Shown here piece by piece: positions 43,584 to 46,118 of a stretch of DNA of 64,000 bases. Location: positions 216,092-280,091 of the forward strand of contig NZ_BQYK01000001.1 of the NCBI RefSeq assembly GCF_023168145.1, given 5' to 3'. A program made the translations under genes and the position numbers. Within the stretch, counting starts at the first letter, position 1, and the number at the start of each line of letters is the position of its first letter. This stretch comes from Sporosarcina sp. NCCP-2222 (GTDB lineage: Bacteria > Bacillota > Bacilli > Bacillales_A > Planococcaceae). The notes beneath the pieces were generated by a model. The model saw only the letters and a list, made by a program, of their open reading frames with translations, was not told where the DNA came from and made no database searches.

Positions 43584-43943
43584 TCAGTGAATGGCCTTCA
43601 TGCCTTCTAATAGGAATTTCGCATCTTCATTGAGATAATATTTGACGTCCGGTCTCATCAAAAGATCCGTATTATTTTTAGCCGAAATACGAAGTCCACG
43701 CAAATCAAACTTTGACGCATAGACATTAATCGCCTGGATAATGTTCATTTCTATCCGATTCAAAGGCTTCACTTGAGTTTCATTATCTGCAAGCATATCA
43801 AGCAATGCTCTCGAATTCCCCCGTAATAAATGCTTATTCTGAAGCAAAAGCTCTATGTTGTCCTCAATATATTTTCTTGCTGATACGAGATCCAGTTTAT
43901 CCGTAGCCTCGTTAATTACTCTTATTAATTCCCGAAAGTCCAT
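43584..43943 (-). CDS. Hypothetical protein, 119 residues
   Basis: Soluble, mostly helical protein I do not recognise. It has no Cys, no signal sequence and no membrane helix; it alternates charged helices (FRELIRVINEATDKLDLVSARKY cut to its core INEATDKLDL; RALLDMLADN; MNIIQAINVYASKFDLRGLR). AAGGGG stands 8 nt before the ATG, and codon use looks like the neighbours. It lies alone between hemW and lepA, where B. subtilis has no gene, so it is probably lineage-specific. Confidence 0.8.
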   Translation of the reverse strand: MDFRELIRVINEATDKLDLVSARKYIEDNIELLLQNKHLLRGNSRALLDMLADNETQVKPLNRIEMNIIQAINVYASKFDLRGLRISAKNNTDLLMRPDVKYYLNEDAKFLLEGMKAIH

Positions 43944-44112
43944 TAGTCATACCCCTTAGTACAAAGTGTCTATTTTTATTTGCAATATTATAGACTTAAA
44001 TCCTATGTAAGAAAAGGGAAACGCACTTGGTAATGGCATGGAAAGCCGTCCTTCCTCTTGTTCCGTACAATGAAAAACGAGGCCCCGAAGGACCCCGCTA
44101 CAGCAGTTAACC

Positions 44113-44460
44113 TTAATCTTCATCCATTTTCAAGACTGCCATAAATGCCTCTTGAGGAACTTCCACGGAACCAACTTGCTTCATCCGTTTCTTACCTTCT
44201 TTTTGCTTCTCCAACAATTTTCGTTTACGGGAAATATCTCCGCCATAACATTTTGCTAAGACGTTTTTCCCGATTGATTTGATGGTAGATCGAGCAACGA
44301 TCTTTTGGCCGACTGCGGCTTGCACCGGCACTTCAAACTGTTGGCGAGGAATCAGGGACTTCAGCTTCTCGACAATTGCTTTGCCTCGTTCATAGCTGAA
44401 ATCACGATGCACAATGAAACTGAGTGCATCGACTTGTTCTCCATTGAGCAGAATATCCAT
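44113..44460 (-). pseudogene. lepA: Detached C-terminal domain of LepA (EF4)
   Basis: 115 residues that match the C-terminal domain of EF4 end to end ([20 protein letters not shown] ... [20 protein letters not shown]). The segment is in the same frame as the upstream part of lepA and separated from it only by TAG and three sense codons (Leu, Val, Lys). An ATG opens it, but only a weak AGTAAAG precedes the ATG, so separate translation is doubtful. See the upstream part and the finding on the amber codon. Confidence 0.85.
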
Positions 44461-44469
44461 CTTTACTAG

Positions 44470-45936
44470 CTATGACTGCTTGTAGCCAATTAATTCATAG
44501 TCAAGGGAGGCGTATCCTTTTGTACCTGATTTCAGTTGATCGAAGAAGTCATAGACGATCTCAGCCAACGGCAGTTCATAAATGATATTGACACGGGACG
44601 CGTCCAAATAATTCATCGTGACGAAGTTCCCCCGCTTGTTTTGGCAAAGCTCCATGACCGACCCAACGTAATCATTCGGCACCATGATGGAAGCTTTTAC
44701 ATACGGCTCTTCCACGTAATCAATCTTTTGTGCATTCGGCATCATGGACGGATTATCCACTTTCACTTCGGAACCGTCCGTCATTACGACGTTGTAAATA
44801 ACGCTCGGTGCAGTGGTAATCAAATCAATTTTAAACTCCCGTTCAATCCTCTCTTGGATGATCTCCATATGCAGAAGTCCAAGGAAACCACAGCGGTAGC
44901 CGAAACCGAGCGCTTGCGATGTTTCCGCTTCGAATTCGAGGGCGGAATCATTCAACTCCAATTTTTCAAGTGCTTCCCGCAAATCGACGTAACGGTTTGA
45001 GTCAATTGGATACAAACCACAGAACACCATCGGATTCATTTTTCGATAACCTGGCAGCGGCTCGCTCGCCGGTCTCTTGGCATTCGTTACTGTATCCCCG
45101 ACTCTTGTGTCGCCGACATTTTTAATCGATGCGGATAAGAAACCTACGTCCCCAACAGTCAATTCATCGCGAAGCGAGATATTTGGTGTAAAAACACCTG
45201 TCTCAATAACTTCAAATTCTTTGCCCGTTGCCATCATTCGGATTTTATCTCCAGGACGTACAGTTCCTTCGACAATACGAATATTGACGATGACTCCTTT
45301 GTACTGGTCATAATGGGAATCAAAGATCAACGCTTTGAGCGGCGCTTCTGGATCGCCGGACGGCGCTGGTACTTTCTCGACAATTTGTTCTAGAATGTCT
45401 TCGATTCCGATACCCGCTTTTGCTGAGGCGAGCACAGCTTCCGAAGCATCCAGTCCGATAACATCCTCAATTTCTTGTTTTACCCGTTCCGGATCTGCTG
45501 CCGGCAAATCGATTTTATTGATAACCGGCAATATTTCAAGATCGTTATCCAGGGCTAAGTAAACATTAGCCAACGTCTGTGCTTCAATGCCTTGCGCCGC
45601 GTCAACGACTAGGATAGCCCCTTCACAAGCTGCAAGGCTTCGGGATACTTCATATGTAAAATCCACATGTCCCGGTGTATCGATCAAATGGAAAGTATAA
45701 TCTTCACCATTTTTTGCGGTGTACGTCAATTGAACCGCATTCAGTTTAATAGTAATACCGCGTTCCCGCTCTAAATCCATCGAATCCAACGTCTGTGACT
45801 TCAATTCACGGGAGCTAAGCGTTTCCGTCTTCTCTAAGATCCGATCGGCTAACGTCGATTTCCCGTGATCTATGTGAGCGATGATGGAAAAGTTTCTTAT
45901 ATTCTTTTGACGTGCCAATCTCTCATCATGATTCAT
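44470..45936 (-). CDS. lepA: Elongation factor 4 (LepA), interrupted by an in-frame amber codon
   Basis: GTPase that acts on stalled or initiating ribosomes, membrane/cytosol. This part has 488 codons: G domain with [16 protein letters not shown] and INKIDLP, then domains II, III and V (ending [12 protein letters not shown]). Codon 489 is TAG (44472-44470), after which the same frame continues with the whole C-terminal domain to 44113. Related proteins carry Lys at this place, so one change AAG to TAG explains it. The full frame would give about 607 residues, the normal size. ATG 45936 has AGGAG 11 nt upstream. Confidence 0.92.
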
Positions 45937-46118
45937 TGTGCAGTTCACTCCTATTTTAGCTATTTGCATTATAGCAAATAACTGCGCAACATGTTATAAA
46001 TTCTTATCAAATCACAATAGAAGTTGATTTATTATTCCACGCCAAGCGGTTTAATCAGGAATGACAGCAGTAAATCAGCTCGTCTATGTAAGTGGCGATG
46101 CGTACCCCTAAAGACAAA

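Follow-up and report, generated by a model that had tools for sequence, protein, structure and literature searches.

The C-terminal domain of LepA (EF4) sets this protein apart from EF-G, and the effects of removing it have been described in Escherichia coli. In PMC4245954, deletion of lepA in E. coli is reported to cause no obvious growth defect, and a LepA lacking residues 487-594, present at a level comparable to that of intact plasmid-borne LepA, did not complement the synthetic phenotypes. In vitro, according to PMC4339808, EF4 without its C-terminal domain still bound nucleotides and ribosomes, and kcat was normal for the two larger deletions. The same study describes EF4 cut at A494 as having normal nucleotide binding, an unchanged kcat, and a ribosome KM at least tenfold higher, and this protein seemed to be more stably bound to the ribosome. 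In Bacillus subtilis, the stress regulator Spx is reported to lower a set of genes that includes lepA (PMC8957991).

Literature searches on lepA nonsense mutations, stops, and pseudogenes, and on lepA of Sporosarcina, returned nothing on the allele described here at the level of listings. Bacterial genomes also contain recent single-nonsense pseudogenes, which carry one stop and no further decay and are intact in sister genomes.

Here, we describe lepA of Sporosarcina sp. NCCP-2222, which lies in the 64,000-nucleotide stretch of DNA that was analyzed (the window; coordinates below refer to it unless stated otherwise). The gene is like known LepA/EF4 in that both parts of its frame match by Pfam and PDB sequences and in that the frame is intact in 66 of 68 genomes of the genus. 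It is unlike them in that the NCCP-2222 frame is interrupted at codon 489, leaving an annotated product without the C-terminal domain. It shares with the E. coli truncations (residues 487-594 removed, PMC4245954; cut at A494, PMC4339808) the loss of that domain and the retention of domains I-III, whereas the natural stop, read here from sequence alone, precedes those two truncation points by about 8 and 15 residues and lies within the Pfam domain V match. The locus also resembles a recent single-nonsense pseudogene, with one stop, no decay, intact sisters, and no second copy, and differs from that pattern in that the gene struck here is kept nearly everywhere in the genus. Our best reading is that this is probably a recent nonsense allele of the sole lepA of the genome and functionally a lepA loss.

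An in-frame TAG interrupts lepA

The whole interrupted frame is encoded on the minus strand (45936..44113) and comprises 488 residues, a TAG codon, 118 residues, and the natural stop. The part before the TAG (44473..45936, minus strand) contains the GTPase domain, domains II and III, and most of domain V, as judged from its translation, Pfam, and PDB LepA sequences. GTP_EFTU, GTP_EFTU_D2, and EFG_C scored above their cut-offs and EFG_III below its own; the EFG_C match extends over residues 409-487 (profile positions 3-80 of 89). The TAG itself (44470..44472, minus strand) sits in the lepA frame and is codon 489 when counted from the ATG at 45936 (MNHDERL...). It is followed by CTA GTA AAG ATG GAT, after which the frame stays open to the natural stop at 44113-44115. 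This rear part (44113..44469, minus strand), recognized from its translation and by comparison with the nearest sister genome found, G213, holds a complete LepA_C Pfam domain in the same frame (44128..44448, minus strand; profile positions 1-107 of 107; 174.6 bits). PDB LepA chains matched both parts in sequence comparison. Under the standard code, the C-terminal domain is not part of the same polypeptide as the preceding domains.

An alternative ATG lies at 45969, 11 codons earlier, and the frame is open from there too. Because several relatives carry a stop within this 11-codon upstream stretch, we take the numbering from the ATG at 45936 to be right. An earlier reading of the window from its letters only (the sequence-only reading) had claimed a TAG at codon 489 of an otherwise complete lepA, followed in frame by CTA GTA AAG and a full C-terminal domain; sequence and translation confirm both statements, including the numbering. 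A genome profile search found LepA_C at one place only, with no second lepA copy. Between lepA and a hemW-like gene, we also observed a 119-residue frame (43584-43943, minus strand) with no Pfam match.

The stop lies close to the border between domain V and the C-terminal domain

The Pfam matches in an intact LepA, that of the relative G016, span residues 409-495 for EFG_C (domain V) and residues 497-603 for LepA_C. By these limits, codon 489 lies 7 residues inside the domain V match and 8 residues before LepA_C. The sequence-only reading had put the stop exactly on the border of the two domains and had expected a shortened but foldable factor. The stop is indeed near that border, but it falls inside the Pfam domain V match, and the expectation of a foldable product is half right, as 7 residues at the end of this match are lost as well.

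Window residue 490 aligned with residue 480 of the 599-residue PDB chain 3cb4, which we take to be E. coli LepA; codon 489 therefore corresponds to residue 479 of that chain. In a structure model of intact G016 LepA, the stop is predicted to fall between strands 477-488 and 490-496. This model is poor (mean pLDDT 51, with 76 for residues 481-490 and 45 for residues 491-500), and its strand limits serve as a hint only.

The stop is private to NCCP-2222, and the site carries Lys throughout the genus sample

To place the stop among relatives, we searched 68 genomes of the genus, 67 of which had a LepA match at the threshold used. An internal stop was present in 1 of these 67, solely the Sporosarcina sp. 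NCCP-2222 genome, and the one other genome without an intact frame is 75% complete and gave no match. Of 161 genomes drawn from the family, 160 have LepA_C. Among the 150 of these 160 matches that were listed, 149 lay in open frames of at least 608 codons, and the NCCP-2222 match alone lay in a 118-codon frame.

The residue at the codon 489 site is Lys in all 29 loci of genus relatives (L003-L031), as well as in G213 and in a further relative, G225. The 80 wider Bacillales loci mostly have Lys, and also Arg, Asn, Thr, Gln, Ser, or His. This comparison took in 109 relatives (L003-L111); the codon tally caught 58 of 110 rows, the window included, and the other 52 were read from peptides. One earlier lepA comparison used 24 of the 29 genus loci, and the search that gave the 80 Bacillales loci may omit records very near the window. 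The statement that related LepA proteins have Lys at this position thus stands for the genus and has to be relaxed for the wider Bacillales, where the residue varies. A check of the codon in close relatives, as the sequence-only reading had proposed, returned Lys in the genus loci, an intact frame in the sisters, and a TAG private to this assembly.

The lepA frame reads to its natural stop in 78 of the 80 Bacillales loci. Of the remaining two, L072 reaches the end of its contig but has an intact site, and L090 (Mesobacillus boroniphilus JCM 21738, NZ_BAUW01000043.1, approximately positions 1799-1815 of that contig) is broken by a frame change near residue 487, almost where the NCCP-2222 TAG falls. 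Beyond this frame change, the L090 lepA is well kept in another frame; a draft-assembly indel is a simple guess for its origin.

The rest of lepA shows no decay

The lepA genes of NCCP-2222 and G213 share 93.3% nucleotide identity. Between them, 82 synonymous and 2 amino-acid changes lie before the stop, and 34 synonymous and no amino-acid changes behind it. For the part behind the stop, we counted 55 synonymous and 0 amino-acid differences from G225 and 56 and 1 from G016. At residues 150 and 442, the two positions where its LepA differs from that of G213, NCCP-2222 agrees with at least one other relative, and in a set of nine sequences, the stop is the single amino-acid-level change private to NCCP-2222 LepA. 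These counts bear out the claim that the remainder of the gene is free of decay.

At the lower synonymous rate, a LepA free of constraint since the split from G213 should have gathered approximately 211 changes, and no private change was seen. At this rate, the time free of constraint is bounded at approximately 1.4% of the branch since G213 for the whole protein, and at 7.1% when the C-terminal part is taken alone (42 changes expected). By a hand calculation, placing the origin of both shared differences on this branch would loosen the bound of approximately 1.4% to approximately 3%. The absence of private amino-acid changes implies that the stop is very young, that the base is wrong, or that the part behind the stop is still translated; an error in the base or continued translation of the rest would lead us equally to expect a gene without decay.

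Synonymous divergence from G213 rose from 82 of 326 sites before the stop to 34 of 78 sites behind it (window 44116-44469; Fisher p 0.002), and identity to G213 was also low just downstream (0.87-0.92 across 43617-44366). All five codons from 487 to 491 (window 44461-44478) differ from G213. We considered a patch of recombination or mutation at the stop and rejected it: clusters as dense as codons 487-491 occur at 16 places in the 19.5 kb aligned with G213, so that the patch is not special and probably reflects chance. The densest 15-codon stretches of differences within lepA lie elsewhere, starting from codons 516-518 (shuffle share 0.489).

Assembly quality argues against a sequence error

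A single base decides the interpretation of this locus, and the strain could really have a sense codon and a full LepA if that base were a sequencing or assembly error. Such an error would leave lepA without decay and would produce a stop private to one of 67 genomes, as we observed, and the run of five codons that all differ from G213 is also consistent with it. This last point is offset by the 16 clusters of equal density found elsewhere in the alignment. Moreover, the assembly is of high quality (24 contigs, 99.95% complete, 0.78% contamination), and the gaps in the 19.5-kb alignment with G213 are intergenic, preserve the frame, or offset one another within a few bases, with no frame damage.

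A gene-by-gene comparison gave the same picture. When 40 frames of G016 were compared with the window, 32 had a match and 4 of these 32 showed stops, mid-gene in lepA alone; in the other three, the stops fell within the first 13 or last 11 residues. Two further G016 frames were covered less fully, the one with a cover of 0.54 lying at the end of the window. In the reverse comparison, 4 of 34 window frames met stops in G016, namely lepA in its extended start, two frames close to their N-terminal ends, and a short opposite-strand frame. The clean 19.5-kb alignment and the gene comparison argue for a good consensus, by which one base is not proven. We consider an error at this base rather unlikely, while still giving it appreciable weight.

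We also scanned 367 kb (the window together with further stretches, approximately 9% of the genome) for nonsense codons and obtained 19 candidate stops, including that of lepA, with a coding-like score before and behind. Judged by eye, 16 of the other 18 had the start codon of the next gene close behind, and 2 had a weak upstream score; candidate L172 8727 was re-read and taken as a gene border. A nonsense-rich genome was rejected on this basis, as lepA was the only one of the 19 candidates judged, by eye and from sequence context, to be coding on both sides.

TAG is an ordinary stop codon in this genome

The sequence-only reading had listed translational read-through or an amber suppressor as an option, in which a near-cognate or suppressor tRNA would fill codon 489, LepA would work, and the rear part would be under selection. 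Full constraint behind the stop agrees with this explanation, and the variety of residues that occupy the site across Bacillales suggests that the protein could accommodate Gln, Lys, or Tyr there. The UAG is followed by C, and the introduction of PMC5289835 reports that, in yeast, read-through of each of the three stops increases with a C at position +4. On the other side, PMC5289835 describes read-through as rarer at UAG than at UGA, and the stop occurs in none of the 66 other genus genomes with lepA, unlike a kept recoding site.

The decoding machinery pointed in the same direction. RF1 is intact and scored above its profile cut-off, and TAG ends 26 of 306 high-scoring frames in the 367 kb, indicating that it is an ordinary stop in this genome. 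The search for PylS gave 4 genome matches, all below the cut-off; 13 of 14 control genomes also matched, 1 of them above it. No CTA anticodon was present among the at least 48 tRNA genes found or in further stretches scanned, a set that is incomplete given the 68 tRNA genes of the one-contig relative G225 against 48 here (the searches scored the best 150 candidates each), so that a suppressor may lie among the missing ones. The search for an amber suppressor tRNA that the sequence-only reading had proposed was thus negative for an incomplete set. RNA structure at and behind the stop was no more stable than that of shuffled sequences (z 0.49 and 0.63); the G213 stretch folded alongside gave a z of −1.27, a rough comparison only, as its register is shifted by two bases from the AAG codon.

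Together, the intact RF1, the ordinary use of TAG, the lack of a PylS above the cut-off, and the lack of a CTA anticodon in the incomplete tRNA set lend no support to amber reassignment or suppression. Read-through gained no positive support from RF1, TAG use, tRNAs, PylS, or RNA structure, and we regard it as improbable, although the stop may be slightly leaky. Among the tRNA genes, we further observed clusters at or near the ends of contigs C2, C3, and C7 of the NCCP-2222 assembly; the at least 48 genes found include no Pro tRNA and one Ala tRNA. It is probable that the assembly lacks some tRNA genes or that these were left unscored.

A variant of this idea treats the TAG as a leaky switch, in which UAG-C would give mostly LepA without the C-terminal domain together with a small full-length share, and EF4 activity would be set by termination efficiency. 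This would place the C-terminal part under selection though no genus sister has the stop, and we consider it very unlikely. A split LepA, in which ribosomes would stop at codon 489 and re-initiate at the ATG of Met 493 (44458..44460, minus strand) to yield two cooperating polypeptides, is hardly credible. This ATG, the only conceivable restart codon close by, follows the stop at a distance of 9 nt, and the 115-residue frame that begins there includes the whole LepA_C. However, the 40 nt preceding the ATG contain no Shine-Dalgarno-like motif, Met 493 does not vary among 26 relatives and is hence the ordinary internal Met of the family, the break would fall inside the Pfam domain V match and before predicted strand 490-496 (in a model that is weak beyond residue 490), and no other split lepA occurs in the genus (67 of 67 rows) or among the 150 of 160 family rows listed.

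Discussion

Of the options that the sequence-only reading had offered, a very recent nonsense mutation in an undecayed gene fits best, with its age bounded by the absence of private amino-acid changes. We infer both that the TAG base is real and that the product is non-working. According to this reading, a single nonsense mutation would have struck the only lepA of the genome, too recently for other private amino-acid changes to have arisen. Ribosomes would stop at codon 489 and release a LepA of 488 residues in which the GTPase domain and domains II and III are retained, whereas the end of domain V and the entire C-terminal domain are missing. If E. coli is a guide, cells should tolerate this under ordinary growth.

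The analogy with E. coli also suggests that the truncated LepA is most likely null or a strong hypomorph. As E. coli LepA without residues 487-594 fails to complement (PMC4245954), loss of function is a better prediction than an altered but working factor. A partial, dominant, or interfering activity of the truncated LepA is possible, given that EF4 without its C-terminal domain retains nucleotide and ribosome binding in vitro and, when cut at A494, seems to be held more stably on the ribosome (PMC4339808). Counting against the loss reading, the near-universal retention of an intact frame in the genus implies that loss should cost something in nature.

The lepA stop of NCCP-2222 does not point to novel decoding or to a novel type of protein. 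Provided that the base is real, a recent nonsense allele at this position would represent a natural LepA loss in a genus in which 66 of 68 genomes keep the gene intact. The role of LepA is still argued over, and if this reading is true, the isolate could help to ask when LepA is dispensable.
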